Shown in pieces: positions 2,749 to 48,566 of a DNA stretch of 48,848 bases; within the stretch, counting starts at the first letter, position 1; every line of letters begins with the position of its first letter. Under the pieces are notes generated by a model. That model was not told the origin of the DNA. It worked only from the letters and a program-made list of their open reading frames with translations, and did not search any database. Where the stretch lies: positions 1 through 48,848 of the forward strand of contig JAAWBT010000087.1 in the NCBI GenBank assembly GCA_022792835.1, in the 5' to 3' direction. The DNA comes from Lachnospiraceae bacterium (GTDB lineage Bacteria > Bacillota > Clostridia > Lachnospirales > Lachnospiraceae). The position numbers and the translations under genes are program-made.

Positions 2749-4188
2749 GTGAAATTCTACATAGATCAACTGAGGTCCTTTTTAAAAGGCCGTTTCCATG
2801 AGGAGAAAGAAAAAAACTTAATATTGAGCATGCTTCTTTTCCGTTTTGCAAGTCTTGAGTTTGAGAAAGAATGTGCTACATTAAAGTTCAAGGACCAGGA
2901 GGACGAAAGTCGGGCCTATTGGAGAGGAAAAAGTATTTACTTTCCTCGGAATGTAAGGTGGGAGGAATTAAAGAAAAGACAGAAGACGGATTTGAGAAAG
3001 GGACTTTTTGATGCAATATGCATGATGGATGAGCCGGGAAGCAAATATCAGGGGCTCGTGTATCCGAAAAGCGTATCCGGAAACTTTGACGAGGAAGAAC
3101 TTTCTGAACTGTTTCGCATCACAGGGGCGCTTTCCTTTGATGATAATGGGGAGGAAGGCTCTGATTTTGCCCAGTTCTATGAGTTTATTATACAGTATTT
3201 GACGGACTGGAGTACGAGACAGATGGGAAGCTATTATACGCCCCGTCAGATTGCCAGACTGATGATCGAGCTGCTGGAACCGGATGCAGGAGCCATATAT
3301 GATCCATGCTGTGGCACCGGGAGCATGCTGCTGTATACATTGGACTATATGAGGAGAAAAAAGCAGAAATGTGAGCTTTATGGGCAGGAAGCGGATGAGA
3401 CTGCATGGAACATAGCGCGTGTTAATCTGCTTTTGAGAGGGGCAAAAGCTAATCTGGGAGCCATTGCGGCCAGTACCTTTGAAAAGGATTTGCATCCGGA
3501 CCTGCAGGCGGACTTTGTGTTGGCAAATCCGCCCTTTCATAGATATGGGCGGGGACAGGAGCGGATACCACATGCCGTACAATGGAAAGCAGATTTTCCG
3601 CTTTCCAGGAAAGGGGAGTTTGTCTGGCTGCAGCATATGCTTTTCCATCTGAAAGAACATGGCAGAATGGCGTCTGTGTTTGGCAATGGGATTTTGGCCA
3701 GCCAGAGAAGAGAAGAACGGGAGATTCGCGCGGCGCTTTTGAGGGAGGATGTTTTGGAGGCTGTCTTTACCCTCCCTCCAGGGCTGTTTTATGGAACAAA
3801 GGTGTCGGTCTCTCTGTGGATATTGAAGAAAAACAAGGAGAAAATCTGCAGAAAGAAGCTTTTACTTGTAGACGCCCGGAAGATGGGAAAGGCGGAGGGC
3901 GGTCTAACTGTACTGTCGGTTTTGGAACAAAAAAAATTGATTCAGGCATACAGAAATTATCAGAATGGAGTCCAGGATGACCAGCCAGGATTTTGCCGGC
4001 AAATGTCAGTGACAGAAATTGAGACGGAGGAGTATTCTCTGGCGCCGGAGCGGTATGTGATGGACAGGCGGCAAAAACTGTTGCAATTAGAAGAATTGGA
4101 GAGTCATGAGGACCAGTTGGAGAGCCGATTGGAGGAACTGCTGTGGGAGAGCAGTGATATTCTGAGTCGGATCCTTGATGGCAAGTAG
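2749..4188 (+). CDS. type I-like N6-adenine DNA methylase subunit (first of two)
   Basis: A 479-residue HsdM-type methyltransferase that would transfer a methyl group from S-adenosylmethionine to adenine N6. Residues 1-150 resemble the helical HsdM N-terminal domain. Residues about 155-400 are the N6_Mtase fold with the entry phrase GSYYTPRQIA, motif I DPCCGTGSM (about 185-193) and catalytic motif IV NPPF (about 260-263), so it looks intact. It is close to normal HsdM length. I chose GTG at 2749 because GAAGAGGAA lies about 8 bases upstream; the TTG at 2740 is too close to that site. It is the first gene of the operon, 10 bases before a second, divergent methylase gene. Nearest family: type I restriction-modification M subunits. 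No HsdR follows, so its partners are unusual. Confidence 0.85.
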   Translation: MKFYIDQLRSFLKGRFHEEKEKNLILSMLLFRFASLEFEKECATLKFKDQEDESRAYWRGKSIYFPRNVRWEELKKRQKTDLRKGLFDAICMMDEPGSKYQGLVYPKSVSGNFDEEELSELFRITGALSFDDNGEEGSDFAQFYEFIIQYLTDWSTRQMGSYYTPRQIARLMIELLEPDAGAIYDPCCGTGSMLLYTLDYMRRKKQKCELYGQEADETAWNIARVNLLLRGAKANLGAIAASTFEKDLHPDLQADFVLANPPFHRYGRGQERIPHAVQWKADFPLSRKGEFVWLQHMLFHLKEHGRMASVFGNGILASQRREEREIRAALLREDVLEAVFTLPPGLFYGTKVSVSLWILKKNKEKICRKKLLLVDARKMGKAEGGLTVLSVLEQKKLIQAYRNYQNGVQDDQPGFCRQMSVTEIETEEYSLAPERYVMDRRQKLLQLEELESHEDQLESRLEELLWESSDILSRILDGK

Positions 4189-4198
4189 GAGGATGGCG

Positions 4199-5491
4199 AT
4201 GGCAGAGTTGAAACATACATGTCTGAGATTATGCCAGACAGTGGATTGGCTGCTGGAACAGTCAAGGCTTTGGCAGACAGAGGCATTAGAGTTTTTAAAT
4301 GATTTTTCCCTGCTTCTATATGCAGCGGCCTATGGAGGAACTGCTGACCTTCTGGTTTTTGACAGATTTTTCAGAGAACCGAAACGCCAGGAGGTGACAG
4401 AGGGGATTTTGAGCAGATATCCAAGCCTGAAAGAACTGGACTATGAATTTGGCAGAGGTTTGAAAAGAATAAGCGACGAGGCATGGCGGGAACTGGCGGA
4501 ATGTTTCCATGCATTTTCGCCGGAAGGGCAGTTGCAGAAGTACGGTGGAAAACTATTTGATTACGTATTACAAAGCATGTACAGGAAAGAGAGGATCAGT
4601 AATTTTATCACCCCGCAGTCATTGGCGCATATGATGGCGGACATGCTTGAACCAAGACAGGGGGAACTTGTGATTGACCCCGTCTGCGGCTGCGGCAGAT
4701 TATTGACCGCGGCTGCCGCAAGGTGCGGGGGCGGCCGCTATATCGGCAATGACCTGGACGGGAGGATAAGGACAACCGCTTTTTTTAATACGGCGCTTCA
4801 TGGGATGAAGGACGTGGAGCTTTACCAGGAAGATTTTCTGAGAGGAACATGGGAGAGACAGGGAGACTTGATTTTGGCCAACCCGCCTTACAGTGATGAT
4901 GTACATGCGACCATCCGTTTTTTGAAAAAAATTATGGGCACATTGAAAATGGGCGGCAGATGCGGCGTGCTGGTCCCGGAAGGCTTTTTAACCAACGCTG
5001 TAAATGCCCATGTCATTGCCATGCGTCAGATTTTGCTTTGCCAGTACAGTCTGGAGGCAGTGATATCGCTTCCCAGAAAAATATACAGGCCGTATACCTT
5101 CAGCAAATCTTCTTTGATTCTTGTGAAAAAAGAGAAGGCCTCGCCGGGACATCTGACCTTTTTTGGCAGTGTAGCGGAATATGAAGGGCCGGAAAATCAA
5201 TTTTCGGACCAGGTCTATGGACGGGAGATGAAACGGATTGCAGAAGCCTGGAAAGGCTGGAGGCGAGGAGAATGTGGGAGTGATACTGTAAGGGGGAACA
5301 CAGGATTCTGGGTGGCGTCTCTGGAAGAGATCAGGGAAAAGGGGTATGTATTTGGCGCCGATTACTACCAGAAGTCAAAATATAAGTATACGAAACCACA
5401 AAGAGATAAGGTGTGGGATAATATTTTTGCGGGACAGAAAGAGCTGGAACGCTTTGTCTCAGACTATTTTAGAGAGGATTCTGCAATATGA
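4199..5491 (+). CDS. second N6-adenine DNA methylase-like subunit
   Basis: A 430-residue protein with the HsdM layout but clearly different in sequence from its neighbour. It has an N-terminal helical part, then ISNFITPQSLAHMM leading into motif I DPVCGCGRLL (about 160-169) and motif IV NPPY (about 228-231), followed by the KMGGRCGVLVPEGFL stretch typical of N6_Mtase. Both key motifs are present, although motif I has Cys-Gly-Cys-Gly where CGTG is usual. The start at 4199 is set by AGGAGG at 4187-4192 with a 6-base gap; ATG at 4193 and TTG at 4175 are less likely. Its end overlaps the HsdS-like gene by 4 bases (ATGA). Two adjacent paralogous M subunits suggest a heterodimeric methylase core; that is inference. 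Confidence 0.8.
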   Translation: MAELKHTCLRLCQTVDWLLEQSRLWQTEALEFLNDFSLLLYAAAYGGTADLLVFDRFFREPKRQEVTEGILSRYPSLKELDYEFGRGLKRISDEAWRELAECFHAFSPEGQLQKYGGKLFDYVLQSMYRKERISNFITPQSLAHMMADMLEPRQGELVIDPVCGCGRLLTAAAARCGGGRYIGNDLDGRIRTTAFFNTALHGMKDVELYQEDFLRGTWERQGDLILANPPYSDDVHATIRFLKKIMGTLKMGGRCGVLVPEGFLTNAVNAHVIAMRQILLCQYSLEAVISLPRKIYRPYTFSKSSLILVKKEKASPGHLTFFGSVAEYEGPENQFSDQVYGREMKRIAEAWKGWRRGECGSDTVRGNTGFWVASLEEIREKGYVFGADYYQKSKYKYTKPQRDKVWDNIFAGQKELERFVSDYFREDSAI

Positions 5492-6471
5492 CAGTGAAAC
5501 GGATGCCCTTGGAAATGGTGGCTAATATATACTCCGGCTCAAACCTCAAAAACAGAGAGAACGTTTTTGGGGGAGAAGGCTGCCCCTGGGTAAAAGTGGA
5601 GGATTTAAATAACGGGGAGCTGGAGACGGCCTCCCGTAGTCTGTCGTCAGAGGGGATGGGGCAGGTAAGGGTGTCGCCTGCGCAGACCGTGTTTTTTTCC
5701 AGTACGGGAACCATTGGAAAAGTGGGAATAGCCAAAGTGCCCATGGCTCCCAGCAACAACATGATCGCCGTAGAGTTTGACAGAGAACAGGTGGAGCCTC
5801 TTTATGGCATGTATTGTCTGCTGGCCATGGGGGAGGAATTGAAAGCAGAGGCAGGTGGCGCCGTCTATGCCTCCCTTCGCCTTTCTGTGTTTCGGAAATT
5901 TCAGATTCCGGTTCCGTCCCGGGAGGTACAGCGCAGGATTGCCGGAAAGCTGGAGGCTTTGCACAAAAGCCGTCTTGAGCAGGAAGCACTGATTGATCAT
6001 GTGAGGCAGGCCGTTCATGTACTGTTCGATAACTATTTCAGTGGGTGTATCGAAGACGTGATACAGAAACAACGCTGCTTGAAATTGGGAGAGTGTGCGG
6101 ATATTCAGTTAAATGGAGCGGCAAAAAATAAGCAGGGAGAGTCTGTCCTCTATGTGGCGACTTCCCAGCTGGATGACTGGGAGATTTCAGAAAATAGAAT
6201 TCCGCTGGTGAATGTGGAGCCAGAGAGGATGGACAGGTACTGTATTCATGCCGGCGATATTGTGATGAATCGCATCAACAGTGCGGAACGGCTGGGAAAA
6301 TGCGGGCTTATTTTTACAGAGCCGGAGAAAATGACCGTTTTTGGACAGAATACTCTGAGGATACGGGGGGACCATCAACTGCTGAACCCGATCTTTTTGT
6401 TTGCATGGCTGACCCATTCTTATGTAAAACAGTACGTTCGGGAAAATGCGAAAAACTCTACATCTTTCTAG
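5488..6471 (+). CDS. HsdS-like specificity subunit, N-terminal part ending at an amber codon
   Basis: 327 codons of a type I DNA-specificity protein. The first target-recognition domain (about 1-150) contains WVKVEDLNNGE and the SSTGTIGKVGI stretch typical of the family. The first conserved helix follows (about 150-190, VQRRIAGKLEALHKSRLEQ). The second recognition domain (about 195-327) contains YVATSQLDD, AGDIVMNRINS and ends NSTSF. The frame then meets TAG at 6469-6471 and continues in the same frame as SSLNKQVLMELPLPL, which is the usual junction into the second HsdS helix. The stop is therefore a nonsense interruption, not a natural end. As it stands the product lacks the second dimer helix. 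It starts in a 4-base overlap with the upstream methylase gene, which indicates translational coupling. Confidence 0.8.
   Translation: MTVKRMPLEMVANIYSGSNLKNRENVFGGEGCPWVKVEDLNNGELETASRSLSSEGMGQVRVSPAQTVFFSSTGTIGKVGIAKVPMAPSNNMIAVEFDREQVEPLYGMYCLLAMGEELKAEAGGAVYASLRLSVFRKFQIPVPSREVQRRIAGKLEALHKSRLEQEALIDHVRQAVHVLFDNYFSGCIEDVIQKQRCLKLGECADIQLNGAAKNKQGESVLYVATSQLDDWEISENRIPLVNVEPERMDRYCIHAGDIVMNRINSAERLGKCGLIFTEPEKMTVFGQNTLRIRGDHQLLNPIFLFAWLTHSYVKQYVRENAKNSTSF
6469..6471 (+). other. in-frame amber codon inside the HsdS-like gene
   Basis: TAG stands where related HsdS proteins usually carry a polar residue (commonly Gln) between the NSTSF-like and SLNKQ-like phrases. A CAG-to-TAG change would be one transition. 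Frames 5488-6471 and 6496-7518 are the same phase with no other stop between them, so this single codon splits an otherwise continuous 676-codon gene. Confidence 0.85.
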
Positions 6472-6495
6472 AGTTCTTTAAACAAACAGGTCCTT

Positions 6496-7518
6496 ATGGA
6501 ACTTCCTCTTCCTCTGGCAAAGTTGTGGCAGCAGGAGAAATATGCGGAAGAATTGGATAGCTATTTTTGCTATATCCGTACTGCGGAAAAAATTATTGAA
6601 ACCCTGAGGGAATTGCAGCAAGTCTGGTATGACAAAATACGGTTTTTATCACAACAGGGAGAGAAAGAACAGACAGAGGCAGATCCTTTCAGGGGTTATC
6701 AGGAGGGCAGATATTGGACTGCCCCCACAGGGGCCCTCTGCTTTTATGATTCTTTCTTGGAATGCATTCAGGTTCCGCCGGGGGAGAGCAGGCTGGTCAG
6801 ACTGGCCGGACTTCCACTGGGAGCCGAAGTGCAGTTTTTAGAAGAAGTGAGAACAGCGGATCAGAAAGATTACGGACGCCTGGGACATACGAGGCTGAAA
6901 CGGATCAGTGAAGATACAGTGCAGGTGATTCAGATGGAGCCGGTGGCCTATCGGTCCGGGGAAATGCAGAAGAGGGAGGATGAAGAGAGGCGGCTGGAAG
7001 AAAATGGGATACTGAGTGAACAGCAGGATTTTGGCTACATACGCCATATTCAGGAAGTAAAATTCGGGAAGGGCGAGACAGCGGAACAGTGTTTATCAAA
7101 CTACCGGTTTCACGACGGGAAGGAATATTGCCGGTTTCAACAATTTCCGGATTCGGCCCGATTCTTTGTGTCGCGGCTGTCGGCATTTCAGCAGGCAGTT
7201 TTTGAAGAATTTCTTTTGGCTATGCAGCCTCTTGCCTGCCATATGGTTGGAAAGCAGGTGGTTATGCGGGCGGGAGAGGAGCATTTTAAACATGATGGGA
7301 TTCAGGATGTGATTGCCGCGGTGCGGCTTTTGGAACATGCGGGCCTATTGGAGCGGCGGCAGGGATTTTACCTGAATTATGACGGCGATTACGGACAGGG
7401 AGAACCGCGGCAGATGATTCTGGATTACAGAGGAAAGCCGATTCCCATCGACACGTGGATTTGCGGGGATGTAAGGGAACAGGGGATGGACGATGGAGCT
7501 GATAAAGGTTTGGATTGA
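6496..7518 (+). CDS. HsdS-like specificity protein, C-terminal part plus extra domain
   Basis: The downstream part of the interrupted HsdS gene, shown from the first ATG after the amber codon; homologous sequence begins right after the TAG at 6472. Residues 1-60 are the second conserved HsdS helix (LAKLWQQEKYAEELDSYF to IETLRELQQVWYDKIRFLSQQ). The following 280 or so residues are not part of ordinary HsdS proteins. They hold a charged linker and a C-terminal piece (IQDVIAAVRLLEHAGLLERR) that reads like a winged-helix. ATG 6496 has only a weak AGGT upstream, so independent initiation would be poor. The end overlaps the ATPase gene by 26 bases. The extension could dock the specificity subunit to the ATPase/HNH partners; that is inference. 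Confidence 0.65.
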   Translation: MELPLPLAKLWQQEKYAEELDSYFCYIRTAEKIIETLRELQQVWYDKIRFLSQQGEKEQTEADPFRGYQEGRYWTAPTGALCFYDSFLECIQVPPGESRLVRLAGLPLGAEVQFLEEVRTADQKDYGRLGHTRLKRISEDTVQVIQMEPVAYRSGEMQKREDEERRLEENGILSEQQDFGYIRHIQEVKFGKGETAEQCLSNYRFHDGKEYCRFQQFPDSARFFVSRLSAFQQAVFEEFLLAMQPLACHMVGKQVVMRAGEEHFKHDGIQDVIAAVRLLEHAGLLERRQGFYLNYDGDYGQGEPRQMILDYRGKPIPIDTWICGDVREQGMDDGADKGLD

Positions 7519-9064
7519 TGGATATAAACATTTGAGAAATACCTGTGTTAATTTTAATGAGAAAGTTTCTCCAGCTGTGTTTTCTGGGGAACTGCCCATA
7601 CGGTTTTTTATAGGACTGAATGGATCTGGAAAGTCAGTGTTTCTGGAGGGGATTTGCTTTTTGTTTTCCCGGATTGTCCAGAACGAGGTGCCCGGCTTTG
7701 ATTTTTCCCTGGTTTACCGTATCTTCCGGGACCGCATGTATCGTGTGGAAGTCACCAACGGGAGAGGGGAGGAAAAGCTGGATATCCTGGTAACCTCGGA
7801 GGGGGAGGGTGAGCTGCAAAGACTTCATACCTTTGAGGGACATCGCAAACTGCTTCCGGATTATGTGTTCACCTGCGCGTCGGGCAGCAATAATAATTAT
7901 TTTGACATTATGGTGCATTCGCCAAGGACATCTCTGTACAGCGATTTATTCGACATGAGCCTGCTGGGAAAAAGCAGAATGGATAAAAAAGAGAGGCGCC
8001 GGAATATCGAAGGGCTGCTGGCTTCTCTGAAGGAGCTGGAGGAAAATCCCATCAGCATGTTTGTCGATGAGGAGAATTCAGTGTTGGTGCTGGCCGCCCT
8101 GCTGTCTGTTCTGCCGGGAAGGCCAGACTCAGAGACCATGGCGGGCTACATGAAATTCAGGCGGGAGATTCTGGCGATGGTGGACAGTATGCCTGAACCG
8201 ATCATGCTGTCTCTGACTTTAGATGCGGGGCGGGCGGAGGAATTGAGAGATACGCTTTGGAAAGGCAAAGATTATCAAAGGCGGTTTGAAAGAAGCGGGT
8301 GGAGTACCACGAGGCTTTATCAGTATGAAGAGGCGGATATGGCAAACGGCCATGGAGACAGAGTCCTTAGCTTTTTATTTGAACCCTGCATTGAGGGGAA
8401 GCAGGATTCTTTTGCTGTCTGCCGTCTCAATGATTGTTATGACAGCCCCATGGAGCTGCTCTCCAAATTAATGCTTGCACGGAATAAGGGAATCATCAAA
8501 GAGGCCCACATTGGATTTCGAATCCAAAATACGGCTGATCTTGTGGAAGAGAATGCGTTCAGTGAAGGGGAATACATGCTGCTTGTCCGGCTGGGGCTGT
8601 TCTTAATGGGGAGAGAATGGAGAGGCAGCCGTCAATGCCTGTTTCTCATGGATGAACCGGATGTTTACTTAAACGAGCATTGGAATATTGACTTTGTGTC
8701 CATGATACACAGAATTTATGAGGGGGCGGCGGCAAATCATGAGATTGTCATCGCAACCCATTCTTCTCTCATGCTGACCGATGCATTTCCCAATCAGCTG
8801 TATTATTTTCAACAGAAACAGGGCCAGGTGGCCTGTCTGAACATCCGCGCCTCCACCTTCGGCGGAAGCCGCAATGAGATTATGGAAAGGCTGTTTTTAA
8901 CTGACAGTTCTGTCGGAACGTATTCCTACAGGATGATAGAAAGAATTCTGGATGAAGTGGAGGACGTAGAGCAGCTGGAAATATATCTTAAGGATGTGGG
9001 CTCTGGCTATCTGAGGCTGCGTATGTTGGATAAAATACAGCACTTAAAGAAAAAAGAGGAATAA
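7493..9064 (+). CDS. SMC/ABC-type AAA ATPase of a defence system (PtuA-like)
   Basis: A 523-residue ATPase of the AAA_15/AAA_21 type found in OLD, Septu PtuA and related defence proteins. Walker A is GLNGSGKS at about 41-48. An ABC-signature-like stretch FSEGEYMLL lies near 358-366. Walker B LFLMDEPDVYLNEHW is at about 382-396, and the switch histidine is in IVIATHSSLML (about 421). Roughly 300 residues between Walker A and the signature would form the coiled-coil and arm region. The GLNGSGKS loop and DEP pair are intact, so ATP hydrolysis is expected. The start ATG 7493 has AGGGGATGGA upstream and overlaps the HsdS gene by 26 bases. The HNH gene follows after 2 bases. ATPase plus HNH is the Septu gene order; the link to methylases is what is unusual. 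Confidence 0.8.
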   Translation: MELIKVWIDGYKHLRNTCVNFNEKVSPAVFSGELPIRFFIGLNGSGKSVFLEGICFLFSRIVQNEVPGFDFSLVYRIFRDRMYRVEVTNGRGEEKLDILVTSEGEGELQRLHTFEGHRKLLPDYVFTCASGSNNNYFDIMVHSPRTSLYSDLFDMSLLGKSRMDKKERRRNIEGLLASLKELEENPISMFVDEENSVLVLAALLSVLPGRPDSETMAGYMKFRREILAMVDSMPEPIMLSLTLDAGRAEELRDTLWKGKDYQRRFERSGWSTTRLYQYEEADMANGHGDRVLSFLFEPCIEGKQDSFAVCRLNDCYDSPMELLSKLMLARNKGIIKEAHIGFRIQNTADLVEENAFSEGEYMLLVRLGLFLMGREWRGSRQCLFLMDEPDVYLNEHWNIDFVSMIHRIYEGAAANHEIVIATHSSLMLTDAFPNQLYYFQQKQGQVACLNIRASTFGGSRNEIMERLFLTDSSVGTYSYRMIERILDEVEDVEQLEIYLKDVGSGYLRLRMLDKIQHLKKKEE

Positions 9065-9066
9065 TT

Positions 9067-10140
9067 ATGTTTCTATCTGTAAAGCAGGCCAGATGCTCCG
9101 GCGCTTTGAATCAGATTATGGATATGATCCAGACGATTTTAGATTATTCAGCGAAGTCGTTGGTTCAGGAACTGGATTTTGATGAATTGTCAAAACTCAT
9201 AGAGCCGGGACTTCAGGTTTTACTGGGAAAGAAAAAAATTCGTGGGGATATTGAAGCGTTATTTCAGCTGACTTATCTGGAACGCACGGAGGCAAACTGG
9301 GCTTTTTTCCATGACAGGAAGTTTGAGAATTACATTGACGACGGAGACTACGAGCTGCATCCTTGCCTGGCGGCAGCACATGAGAAAAGCAGGCCCATGG
9401 AGGTTTTGAATAGACTTTGCAATGATCTCTATGACAGCGTAAAAGACGGACTGCCGGGGAGAGAGGGGGGATTCAGCATTGCCCTGCTGCAAAAGGAATA
9501 TGAGGAACAAAACGGGGAAAACGGCAGAGTGTGTCCTGTGTGCGTAAAGGAAAATCTGTTTGGTATGGGGGAGGGAGAAGTGGATCATTACTTTCCGCGA
9601 AAACAATTCCCGGTATTGGCTCTCCATCCCTACAACTTGCTTCCAGTATGCCGAGACTGTAATGGTCCCCGCAGGAAACACACCAAAAATCCGGTGGCTG
9701 CTTCTGATACAGGCCCAGGTGAGCTTTGCACGGTTTTTTTACCTTATCTGCGCTGCGGGAAGGATGAAATAGAACTTGCGGTGTCTGAAGATCCTTCACG
9801 GCATATCGTCATGAAACCAGGAGCCAAAGGAGATAAAAACACAGAAAAAAGAATTGCCAATATGGAACGTTTGTATGATTTGGGCAGACGGTGGAGCGCC
9901 ATATTTCCTTATGTGTACGAGGATGTCAGGGCAGAGCTTCGCCAAGCAGGAGAATGGGGGAAAACCAGGAAAGACAGGTGCGACCGGCTTCGGAGGATCA
10001 TGGAGGCGAATGCTGACAGTACAAAAAATAGGAGAGATTTTATAAAGGGGGTTTACTGCGGGTGGCTTCTGGAAAAGAGCGATGAAGAATTGGAGGAAAT
10101 GTTTCTCGACGATACGGCGAATCCTGGGCCATCGGCATGA
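9067..10140 (+). CDS. HNH nuclease (PtuB-like)
   Basis: A 357-residue protein with one clear HNH/McrA-type nuclease domain at about 154-212: a CPVC zinc knuckle, VDHYFPRKQF with the catalytic His, NLLPVC, then CRDCN and a nearby Lys. About 150 residues precede it and 145 follow; I recognise no other domain in them. The catalytic residues appear intact. It is the last gene of the operon, 2 bases after the ATPase gene with GAGGA as ribosome-binding site, so ATPase and nuclease are probably made in matched amounts. In Septu systems PtuB-type HNH proteins cut nucleic acid under control of the PtuA ATPase. Here it probably supplies the cutting function that HsdR supplies in type I systems (inference). 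Confidence 0.8.
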   Translation: MFLSVKQARCSGALNQIMDMIQTILDYSAKSLVQELDFDELSKLIEPGLQVLLGKKKIRGDIEALFQLTYLERTEANWAFFHDRKFENYIDDGDYELHPCLAAAHEKSRPMEVLNRLCNDLYDSVKDGLPGREGGFSIALLQKEYEEQNGENGRVCPVCVKENLFGMGEGEVDHYFPRKQFPVLALHPYNLLPVCRDCNGPRRKHTKNPVAASDTGPGELCTVFLPYLRCGKDEIELAVSEDPSRHIVMKPGAKGDKNTEKRIANMERLYDLGRRWSAIFPYVYEDVRAELRQAGEWGKTRKDRCDRLRRIMEANADSTKNRRDFIKGVYCGWLLEKSDEELEEMFLDDTANPGPSA

Positions 10141-45949: not shown

Positions 45950-46102
45950 ATGGGAATAAGGCCGACTGGATTTAGTACGCCTTGGGTTGGGCTTTCCTGG
46001 GAATATACAGAAAAAAAAGTCCCGGAGATTTTATCGGAGATTTATGCCAGGAGAAAAAATCAAGGTTTTTATCAGTTCTATATGCGGAGAGCCAAGGTAT
46101 GA
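45950..46102 (+). CDS. small protein with GFSTPWVGLSW motif, overlapping the DUF4062-like gene
   Basis: A 50-residue frame whose ATG has a good GGAGAGGG site ten bases upstream. The product begins MGIRPTGFSTPWVGLSWEYT. This resembles the GISTPxGGxSW N-terminal signature of a family of bacterial proteins (as I recall DUF6650-type), which normally continue for another 80-100 residues. Here homology fades after about residue 35 and the frame ends at TGA 46100-46102. It overlaps the DUF4062-like gene in another frame. I read it as a truncated or frame-shifted piece, perhaps only a leader for the next gene. Confidence 0.45.
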   Translation: MGIRPTGFSTPWVGLSWEYTEKKVPEILSEIYARRKNQGFYQFYMRRAKV

Positions 46103-46622
46103 TAAGGTACGCACAGAATTAAAAAATGCGATAGAAGGAACAAACCTGGCAGAAGTATATTTGTCTGAAGCAAATCCGGCCTTGAGCCTGCCCATGGAAG
46201 TACATGATGCTTTTGCATTGGAAGGTAGTGACTTGTGCATTTTCTTGATTGATAATGCGGATGGTGTGGCACCCGAAGTACAGAAACAAATAGACTTAGC
46301 AAAAAAATATGGTATTAAAGAGGTCTATTACTTTTGCGATGGGAGGTCATTGGAACAAACAGTTCTTGAAAAGAACCTTACGGGAATTGTGGGTATAAGG
46401 AAAGAAACCGTACATAAGTTTCAAGAGGTAAGTCAAAATGGCGGCGCTGCATTGATGAATGACATTGTATCGGTATATCGTAATTACTGCGGCGGAAATA
46501 TAATCCTCAAATCAGAAAATGAAGAATTTCAGAAAATCGGCGTAGCCGGCACGGAGTCTGTCCCTGCGTCAACGCTTCTTAAAATAGATAATATCAGGAT
46601 AATATTGCAATTGCAAAATTAA
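46044..46622 (+). CDS. DUF4062-like protein, N-terminal part before a frameshift
   Basis: A 192-residue frame beginning MPGEKIKVFISSICGEPRYD. The VFISS start, the YDKVRTELKNAIE helix, the DLCIFLIDNADGV strand and KKYGIKEVYYFCDGRS fit the DUF4062 fold, a Rossmann/TIR-like domain common in bacterial conflict systems. The frame ends at 46620-46622, but recognisably continuous protein sequence goes on in another frame from about 46603 (KDKSTFDINRCC). The stop is therefore probably a frameshift artefact or a real lesion. The start at 46044 has only CGGAG four bases before it, and it may be translated by coupling to the frame at 45950. Confidence 0.65.
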   Translation: MPGEKIKVFISSICGEPRYDKVRTELKNAIEGTNLAEVYLSEANPALSLPMEVHDAFALEGSDLCIFLIDNADGVAPEVQKQIDLAKKYGIKEVYYFCDGRSLEQTVLEKNLTGIVGIRKETVHKFQEVSQNGGAALMNDIVSVYRNYCGGNIILKSENEEFQKIGVAGTESVPASTLLKIDNIRIILQLQN

Positions 46623-47015: not shown

Positions 47016-48566
47016 GTGAGTGTGCTAATGAACACAGAAGTAGATAAATTATCAGTTATGTATGAGGGGGATAAGAATAGAGATGCCACAGATAAGATTA
47101 GGGGATTTTTATTTCAGGATTATGTTGCGATTATGTGCCTCCTTCAAAATCAAGTAAAGTATGTCTGTTCAGAATACCTTGAGGATGTGGATATATTTTT
47201 CGAGGATGGTACATTTGAGTTTATTCAGGTAAAGTATTATCCGAAGACATATCCAAACATGAAGGAAATTTCGACAGATCTTTATTATCAGTATCTCCGT
47301 CTTCAGATGCTTCGGAGTACTTTGAAAGCAAAACCGAGCCTTTATATTCATAGAAATTCAAAGGTTGAGAAACCGGCGTTTGATAAAATGAAAGAATATA
47401 TCGAACTTGGAAATGCGCTTCCAAAATCAGTGCCTTATCCAGATGTAGCGGATTCGGCTGCTTGGCTGAAGACGAAAGTTTACACAACGAATAAGAAAGA
47501 GTTACAAAAGAAAACTCTTTTTGTGGACATGGCCTCTGAGGACTCTCTGAAAGAGTTTGTTTCAAAATATGATATCTTCTTCCAAGTGGATATCAAACGG
47601 TACAAAAAGGAATTGATGGAAGCATTGGCCAGGGCTTATCCGAATCCGGATAAGGATGGGAATGACGAGCACTGGCAGTTCATATTGCTAGGTCTTGCGA
47701 TTTCGTATATACAGCGACGTTATACGCTAGTTAATCCTGTTTTTGATCAGCTGCGAGTGGATAAAAAAGAATTTGATCGTTATATGACGGAATCTGCCAA
47801 GACGAAGACGGAACAGACAATTGCAAGTTATTTGGCGGGCATTGTTTGTGAGAAGTATGGGGAGATTATAAATAGTAATGATCTCTCAGATATACAGACA
47901 CACATGTTAAACATGATTTGCCAGAATACAGTGCGATGGATAAATGAGATTGGTAAGACTGTGGATGGTCAATATCAGTTATTGAATACATATAGCATGG
48001 ATGATGTCGGCAAGATTGCTGGCTACAGAGGAGCTCCTGTAGATGATAGACTGCTTTACGTTGCCGAATGCAAACAGGGTTTTCTTGTTTTTCTGGAGTA
48101 TTTGTGGAAGATTATGCTAAATATCTGTCAGAAGAAGGCGAATAATGAGCCAAGGAATTCTGCTCGTTTGGAAATGTTTGATCCATTGTATTATGTGGAT
48201 TCCTCAGTAACTGACTATGTTTGTCTGAATTTTCCTGAAGATAAATACGTAAACCATAGCGTGATTCTTCCTCGGGCAGGCGGAAATTTTAAAGGTGTAA
48301 AACGAAAGATTGTGGAACGTATTGTGAATATGTTAACAAAACCGGAGAAATGGTTCTTTGAGAATAGTAAACTTACGAGAGGTAAAAATTATTATAACTA
48401 TAGTACGGCGAACGTAAATGAGAATCCTACGGTTGCAGATCTTGGTGAAGATAGTTTTTATATTGAGTGTATGGATTGTATTGGAATTGATGAGGATGAG
48501 TGGGGCATACAGGAAGATTGCAACAGTTGCATTTTTTCTATGAAATGTGTGAAAGAGGAAGCGTAG
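47016..48566 (+). CDS. DUF4297-like defence nuclease
   Basis: A 516-residue protein. The N-terminal part has the signature of the DUF4297/Cap4-type restriction-endonuclease fold: KIRGFLFQDYVAIMCLL (about 28-44), then EDVDIFFEDG and FEFIQVKYY, giving the D/E...D...QxK catalytic arrangement (Asp59, Gln71, Lys73). The remaining 400 residues are helical and not recognised; the C-terminus is cysteine-rich (CMDCIGIDE, CNSCIFSMKC). No SAVED domain is apparent, so it is not an obvious CBASS Cap4. The start is GTG 47016, with AAGGGGGGA just upstream. The next gene begins two bases after its stop. An effector of a three-component ATPase system is a plausible role. Confidence 0.65.
   Translation: MSVLMNTEVDKLSVMYEGDKNRDATDKIRGFLFQDYVAIMCLLQNQVKYVCSEYLEDVDIFFEDGTFEFIQVKYYPKTYPNMKEISTDLYYQYLRLQMLRSTLKAKPSLYIHRNSKVEKPAFDKMKEYIELGNALPKSVPYPDVADSAAWLKTKVYTTNKKELQKKTLFVDMASEDSLKEFVSKYDIFFQVDIKRYKKELMEALARAYPNPDKDGNDEHWQFILLGLAISYIQRRYTLVNPVFDQLRVDKKEFDRYMTESAKTKTEQTIASYLAGIVCEKYGEIINSNDLSDIQTHMLNMICQNTVRWINEIGKTVDGQYQLLNTYSMDDVGKIAGYRGAPVDDRLLYVAECKQGFLVFLEYLWKIMLNICQKKANNEPRNSARLEMFDPLYYVDSSVTDYVCLNFPEDKYVNHSVILPRAGGNFKGVKRKIVERIVNMLTKPEKWFFENSKLTRGKNYYNYSTANVNENPTVADLGEDSFYIECMDCIGIDEDEWGIQEDCNSCIFSMKCVKEEA

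Follow-up and report, generated by a model that had tools for sequence, protein, structure and literature searches.

The window analysed here, a stretch of 48,848 nucleotides covering positions 1 to 48,848 of contig JAAWBT010000087.1 from a Lachnospiraceae bacterium (assembly GCA_022792835.1), carries on its plus strand, between positions 2749 and 10140, an operon in which the methylase and specificity genes of a type I restriction-modification locus are followed by genes for an ATPase and an HNH nuclease that are relatives of PtuA and PtuB, the pair known from Septu and retron Ec78. The association is real, recurrent and modular. Our preferred explanation, which we hold with modest confidence, is that a type I methylase core composed of two methylases (M1 and M2) and HsdS carries or gates a PtuAB-type effector instead of HsdR, a mechanism suggested by the anatomy of the locus and by the precedents of Ec78 and EcoprrI-PrrC. 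A tail on the complex would hold the ATPase-HNH pair while the methylase-specificity (M-S) complex scans DNA through its recognition domains, and the trigger would be either foreign (unmethylated) DNA or interference with the complex by an anti-restriction protein of a phage. In response, the PtuA-like ATPase would free or fire the HNH nuclease, whose cutting of nucleic acid (transfer RNA (tRNA) or DNA, as for known PtuAB) would abort the infection. Both kinds of target have been described: PtuAB of retron-Eco7 degrades tRNA-Tyr and a Septu PtuAB cuts the variable loop of tRNA-Tyr (PMC11555353, PMC13096335), and nicked DNA is the reported target of a Septu from E. coli ATCC 25922 (PMC11555353). 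A precedent for the gating step is PrrC, a tRNA nuclease encoded within a type IC locus and described as activated when EcoprrI is inhibited (PMC12707154).

The five gene families form one genuine operon. Six open reading frames (ORFs) follow one another on the plus strand, encoding M1, M2, HsdS in two pieces, the ATPase and the HNH protein (Table 1). Ten bases separate the M1 stop from the likely M2 start, M2 and hsdS overlap by 4 bases, hsdS and the ATPase gene overlap by 26 bases, and the gap between the ATPase and HNH genes is 2 bases. The GC content of the operon is 0.48, and that of the window 0.494. Between positions 2500 and 10300 there are 13 promoter-like sites, against 9.4 +/- 3.1 expected, and none scores above shuffles; likewise, terminator-like sites in the operon region (8, against 7.2 in shuffles) show no excess. 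An initial annotation of this sequence had described a single operon of five reading units. The operon, the five families, their order and their coordinates stand, and a separate promoter for the ATPase-HNH pair, which would have counted against a single unit, finds no signal above shuffles; the units themselves are six ORFs, the hsdS frame being broken by a TAG codon.

Two of the three components of a type I restriction-modification locus are present in the operon: a methylase of the HsdM type, carrying motifs I and IV, and an HsdS with two target-recognition domains, here seen as two Methylase_S stretches that do not lie in one open frame. The third, HsdR, is missing from it. M1 also matches HsdM_N just below that family's cut-off (5.6e-5), matches PDB entries 3khk (3.2e-50) and 7vru_A (6.5e-50), and has the motif NPPF at 3526-3537. 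The M2 ORF opens at TTG 4175, its likely start is ATG 4199 right behind AGGAGG, and its motif is NPPY (4880-4891). Both had been annotated initially as N6-adenine methylases; their membership in the N6-methylase family and the NPPF and NPPY motifs are borne out, but adenine specificity is uncertain because NPPY is found in N4-methylcytosine (m4C) subunits too (PMC9613975). The non-canonical type I enzyme PacII, an M1M2S assembly, likewise combines two differing methylases (NPPF and NPPY) with one HsdS, and there M1 is described as making N6-methyladenine (m6A) and M2 as making m4C (PMC9613975). The AGEF (M1) and AAEF (M2) motifs of the PacII type do not occur in the window, where GSYYTP (in TRQMGSYYTP) and ISNFITP (in KERISNFITP) stand at the position matched by eye. 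Because these motifs are absent, and because a relative of the window operon in an Oscillibacter metagenome-assembled genome (MAG), locus L029, has NPPY in both methylases, the window enzymes may or may not share the base specificities of PacII. PtuAB-like genes and the lack of hsdR set the window operon apart from that of PacII.

The ATPase and the HNH protein are relatives of PtuA and PtuB, as profile comparison indicates for both and the predicted fold for the HNH protein. The ATPase has the Walker A sequence GLNGSGKS (7613-7636) and the Walker B sequence MDEPD (8639-8662), and the best PDB matches of its profile A1 are 22bu (2.1e-16) and 9vh1 (4.1e-16) (retron Ec78) and 8ee4 (PtuA, 3.2e-15). 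The HNH protein has C156, C159, D173-H174, N190, C195 and C198-N199. In Pfam, the matches of the ATPase to AAA_15/SMC and of the HNH protein to HNH are both below threshold. The initial description of an SMC/ABC ATPase with Walker A and B motifs, paired with an HNH protein in the manner of Septu, is thus upheld. The pair does not make up a stand-alone ptuAB locus, lying as it does in one operon with M1, M2 and hsdS. In Septu and in retron type I-A systems (Ec78/Eco7) the two families are likewise neighbours in this order, and in the retrons a separate partner accompanies them; that partner is a reverse transcriptase, whereas in the window HsdM and HsdS stand beside the pair. No reverse transcriptase was found among the Pfam matches of the six operon ORFs, although no search was aimed at a reverse transcriptase or a noncoding RNA. 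The window HNH protein is also longer (357 residues against about 215 in Septu and the retrons), and the NCBIfam cut-offs for retron PtuA (24.1 bits for the ATPase, against 500) and PtuB are not reached.

We surveyed the best 80 of 373 confirmed relatives of the ATPase together with 10 further loci, some of which had also served as profile seeds. Of these 90 loci, 21 have less than 4.5 kb upstream of the ATPase gene and were excluded from the M-S and HsdR counts. The relatives come from many phyla. At 67 of the remaining 69 loci, the neighbourhood of the ATPase gene includes M and S genes; because L015 and L084 are the same locus, the 67 represent 66 distinct ones. An HNH gene follows the ATPase gene at all 67 (49 by profile, 12 by pattern and six, namely L046, L056, L077, L081, L102 and L107, by reading the sequence), within 60 bases at 60 of the 63 loci where the distance was measured. 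M-S-ATPase is the commonest order, not the sole one, with 16 loci having M behind the ATPase gene or showing other variants. The six plasmid-derived matches examined, out of eight, led to M-S-ATPase operons in Kovacikia, Sphingobium, Hymenobacter, Herpetosiphon, Pantoea and Vibrio, and all of these operons include an HNH gene. The window's own order, for which a search in other genomes had been proposed at the outset, was found again in L029, behind a gapA-like gene (identified by eye), without hsdR and with a frame change in M1. In a quick tree of the ATPases (89 rows, several long branches), the window and L029 group with L028, which runs M2-S-ATPase-HNH from a contig end, L030, which has one M, and L031 (Paenibacillus radicis), which has S, M, ATPase and HNH, in a Bacillota clade (Shimodaira-Hasegawa-like approximate likelihood ratio test 99). 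Uninterrupted operons include that of L031 and an hsdR-free one from Flavobacterium (L098). In one further locus, L038, the order S-ATPase-HNH-M occurs beside genes that look conjugative by eye, which suggests carriage on a mobile element.

The M-S genes could instead form a methylase-only locus that happens to adjoin an unrelated Septu. Defence genes cluster, and two surveyed loci (L014, 6142-8587, and L016, 8941-11857) do hold ATPase-HNH pairs with no M or S nearby. We nevertheless regard such chance proximity as very improbable, given the 26-base overlap between hsdS and the ATPase gene, the lack of an internal promoter signal, the recurrence of the neighbourhood among the relatives, and a tail that tracks whichever gene precedes the ATPase gene (see below).

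The chief rival, and the model put forward in the initial annotation, is direct restriction, in which M1-M2-S would methylate a bipartite site and the ATPase-HNH pair, recruited by S, would replace HsdR by cutting unmethylated DNA. Several observations are in its favour. As the initial annotation had it, no hsdR lies beside the operon. None lies near any of the four assessable loci of the Bacillota clade (window, L029, L030 and L031). A profile search of the window's own genome, an assembly 84.5% complete, found no HSDR_N match on the window contig and no HSDR_N_2 match anywhere. Genome-wide searches covered 15 of the 19 hsdR-free loci with HSDR_N and 12 with HSDR_N_2: HSDR_N is absent from seven of the 15 genomes or records, HSDR_N_2 from nine of 13 searched (12 of those checked with HSDR_N plus the window genome), and both from the genome of P. 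radicis, a Sphingobium MAG, a Parabacteroides genome and both plasmids. Intact motifs in both window methylases, and in the methylases of 17 of the 19 hsdR-free loci, and the report of Septu acting on nicked DNA also agree with direct restriction.

We consider direct restriction unlikely, however, and disfavour it as a general rule because of what the relatives show. When hsdR is called by a four-seed profile on the same strand and no more than 10 kb away, it is present near the ATPase gene at 48 of the 67 M-S loci and absent at 19 (47 and 19 of the 66 distinct loci). Under direct restriction, HsdR and the pair would duplicate each other at the 48. The pair is not simply a substitute for HsdR, and the initial idea that it exists to replace HsdR is not supported; an hsdR gene just outside the operon in relatives, named in advance as evidence against that idea, is common outside the window's clade and absent from the four assessable loci within it. 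Presence of hsdR changes 14 times over the ATPase tree, at least 12 of these changes being forced by well-supported branches, and HsdR therefore looks optional beside a constant effector; the label is mildly clustered on the tree, 19-20 of 500 shuffles being as low. An intact methylase motif is found at 48 of 48 loci with hsdR and at 17 of the 19 without. Five methylase ORFs lack NPP[FYW], namely those of L032 (cut at a contig end), L041 (apparently the later part of a split M), L066 (the candidate adapter), L030 and L088, and only the last two are counted as degenerate. L030 has NPPV, and L088, an hsdR-free M-S-ATPase-HNH operon known from one isolate genome of Pseudomonas cyclaminis, encodes an HsdM (6641-8350) with SDLPHG in place of NPPF and DPAAGTA at motif I. 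Such methylases would leave a host unprotected under direct restriction, so that two among 19 hsdR-free loci, against none of 48 with hsdR, fit poorly with plain cutting of unmethylated DNA, small as these numbers are. Finally, two HSDR_N proteins are encoded elsewhere in the window genome; their contigs, C39 and C56, both carry hsdS (Methylase_S) matches of their own. These are probably two ordinary type I loci, and their HsdR could act in trans.

In the gating model, the part that would hold the ATPase lies in the extension of HsdS. By eye, we take the first ~65 residues of the 340-residue downstream ORF as the ordinary end of HsdS and the other ~275 as extension; for the HsdS end, the PADLOC match reaches only E 0.062. 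The initial annotation had given HsdS an extra C-terminal part of 280 residues, which is about right in length, but the part lies beyond the in-frame stop and does not share one uninterrupted open frame with the rest. In three groups of loci, a winged-helix-like tail occurs on the product of whichever gene precedes the ATPase gene, be it S, M or a separate protein; by profile comparison, the likeness between these tails is of moderate strength. Tails of the window clade (G1) compare with those of G2 at 79.7% (E 1.5e-5) and with those of G3, which are separate proteins between S and the ATPase, at 36.2% (E 3.7e-4), and G2 compares with G3 at 62.3% (E 7.4e-5). As controls, S ends not adjoining the ATPase and M ends each gave 0.1% with the G1 tail. 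Other comparisons gave 44.6% for G4 with G5, 28.8% for G2 with G5, 72.7% for G5 with the S control over 25 residues, and 98.2% for G2 with the S control, over the S core. In P. radicis it is the methylase, encoded immediately ahead of the ATPase, that bears the tail. S proteins directly before the ATPase have a median of 548 residues (51 loci), against 387 at the nine loci that have a separate protein in between. The winged-helix-like tail is thus a possible docking domain for the ATPase.

In L036 (7265-9193), L057 (7234-9303) and their kin (L042, L043, L044, L052, L053, L055, L058, L066 and L074), the ATPase gene is preceded by a gene for a protein of mostly 590-690 residues with a tail related to that of the window. 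It matches no Pfam family in L036 and has only sub-threshold matches in L057, and is possibly a dedicated adapter.

Several points weigh against our preferred gating model. The G1 tail compares with G4 and G5 (40 rows) at 0.1% each, so that a docking domain common to the whole family is not supported, and membership of the tail groups had been assigned by eye in advance of the profile comparison. The relatives were chosen by ATPase similarity, and the frequency of the pair without M-S is not derivable from them. NPP[FYW] occurs in 79 of 84 methylase ORFs, which also suits ordinary restriction. The window hsdS is broken, and interrupted genes are found as well in two other members of its clade, L028 and L029.

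The break itself bears on whether this copy works. The second Methylase_S match (6160-6606) runs across the TAG, after which the hsdS frame reopens through to 7518; the second piece has no Pfam match of its own. In L029, an unbroken S of 647 residues covers both window pieces, and the downstream piece is 52% identical to L028 and 45% to L029. Behind the stop, codon usage correlates in frame (r 0.668, against 0.227 and 0.120 in the other frames), and divergence from L029 is highest at the third codon position (0.45, 0.34 and 0.591). The TAG may be a real stop, a recent change or a fault of the assembly. With hsdS interrupted in this way, the window system may have lost its activity, or may function with S divided between two polypeptides.

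A decaying locus, in which the TAG has disabled the system and left the rest as a relic, is a serious if doubtful possibility; it concerns this copy and is compatible with either mechanism. M1 ends in TAG too, which marks the codon as an ordinary stop in this sequence. Other members of the clade are commonly interrupted as well: in L028, the nearest relative among the best 80 of 373 (ATPase identity 61%), S has an in-frame stop at another place and both the ATPase and HNH genes change frame, and L029 has its frame change in M1. Farther off, L008 has S in two ORFs, and L067, the operon of Niabella defluvii, lies in many pieces in a record titled as a complete genome and is a decayed member. The ATPase is moreover sporadic, being found in one of 11 congeneric genomes, the window's own. 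Because M1 of L029 and HNH of L028 are interrupted too, we rate decay slightly likelier, and gating slightly lower, than we otherwise would. On the other side, the other four genes and 348 codons past the stop are open, with gene-like codon use there; ATG 6496, 24 bases past the stop, could restart translation; and the window, L028 and L029 are draft assemblies in which the breaks may be errors (the window genome is in 100 contigs at the completeness given above, and the coverage of the L028 MAG is thin, 7.4 by its title).

Table 1. Features of the operon and its upstream flank, in window coordinates.
Feature	Position	Strand	Details
Stem-loop	2645..2672	.	Strand unassigned; 12-pair stem and T-rich tail; terminator-like on the minus strand
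M1, HsdM-type methylase, 479 residues	2749..4188	+	GTG 2749 start, TTG 2740 alternative; Pfam N6_Mtase 2e-75
M2, second HsdM-type methylase	4199..5491	+	Pfam N6_Mtase 1.3e-25; PDB 5ybb 8.4e-17
HsdS, first 327 codons, both target-recognition halves	5488..6471	+	Methylase_S 1.2e-18; ends at TAG 6469-6471
Remainder of hsdS frame, end of S core and extension	6472..7518	+	ORF from ATG 6496, 340 residues
Alpha/beta part of extension	6694..7110	+	Model residues 67-205
C-terminal tail of extension, winged-helix-like, proposed ATPase docking domain	7132..7476	+	
PtuA-like ABC/SMC-type ATPase, 523 residues	7493..9064	+	PADLOC PtuA 2.9e-39
PtuB-like HNH nuclease, 357 residues	9067..10140	+	Motif 9532-9678

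The stem-loop separates the operon from the gene upstream of it (539-2635). Near the contig end, the window also encodes a DUF4062-like protein (45987-46622; weak, E 0.094) and then a Cap4-nuclease-like protein (47016-48566; Pfam 4e-5, PADLOC LmuA 5.9e-16), which together are a candidate second defence locus.

The initial annotation knew of no described system with this exact set of genes. None appears, by title or start of abstract, among the open-access papers listed in our searches, but the link of the ATPase to restriction genes has already been noticed, as is shown by the name of NCBIfam family TIGR04435, 'restriction system-associated AAA family ATPase'. Loci of that family on Sphingobium pKN1 and Hymenobacter pHsw2 likewise combine M, a long S and the ATPase in one operon, behind which comes an HNH gene that carries the annotation 'hypothetical', and they too vary in hsdR, which Sphingobium keeps and Hymenobacter lacks. 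The window ATPase matches the C-terminal part of the family (3e-28; best stretch residues 334-516). These loci differ from the window in that the window has two methylases and its ATPase scores 98.9 bits against a cut-off of 300, where the relatives L070 and L009 score 804 and 403. The PADLOC paper, in the passages available, describes a Septu type II with a reverse transcriptase and an Hma operon near Septu, and those passages leave M-S unmentioned. PADLOC Septu models match one of five ATPases tested at near full length, together with its HNH partner (L013; PtuA 1.5e-207, PtuB 5.8e-100), so parts of this family have probably already been counted as Septu, and some systems reported under that name may belong to M-S-ATPase-HNH operons. 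MADS also unites genes for a methylase, an S-like protein and an ATPase in one defence operon; the window scores below the NCBIfam cut-offs for MAD2 (64.3 against 720) and MAD5 (27.5 against 400), the other MADS components not having been searched individually. EcoprrI-PrrC is similar in being a type I locus with an ATPase-linked nuclease effector, one that in PrrC acts when restriction is blocked. PrrC is, however, one protein with its own nuclease part in a locus that keeps HsdR, whereas in the window the ATPase and HNH protein are separate and hsdR is absent; neither in Pfam nor in NCBIfam does the ATPase match a family named for PrrC, though no search was aimed at PrrC.

A broader reading, which we advance tentatively and regard as rather unlikely, is that type I methylase complexes have repeatedly been turned into sensors for PtuAB by way of a movable docking tail on S, M or an adapter, with HsdR becoming dispensable. 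In some members, such as that of P. cyclaminis, methylation would seemingly have been lost, leaving a sequence-recognising guard that would stop the cell by tRNA or DNA cleavage when touched by a phage or an anti-restriction protein.

PtuAB effectors are known alone, as Septu, and with retrons. If the gating model is correct, the type I methylase core would be a third and widespread controller of PtuAB, and HsdR would be optional in many type I loci. The model also poses the testable question of whether a type I complex gates an abortive nuclease as EcoprrI gates PrrC. Since the phage proteins Ocr and ArdA are described as binding and inhibiting the type I enzyme PacII (PMC9613975), systems of this kind could provide the cell with an answer to anti-restriction.

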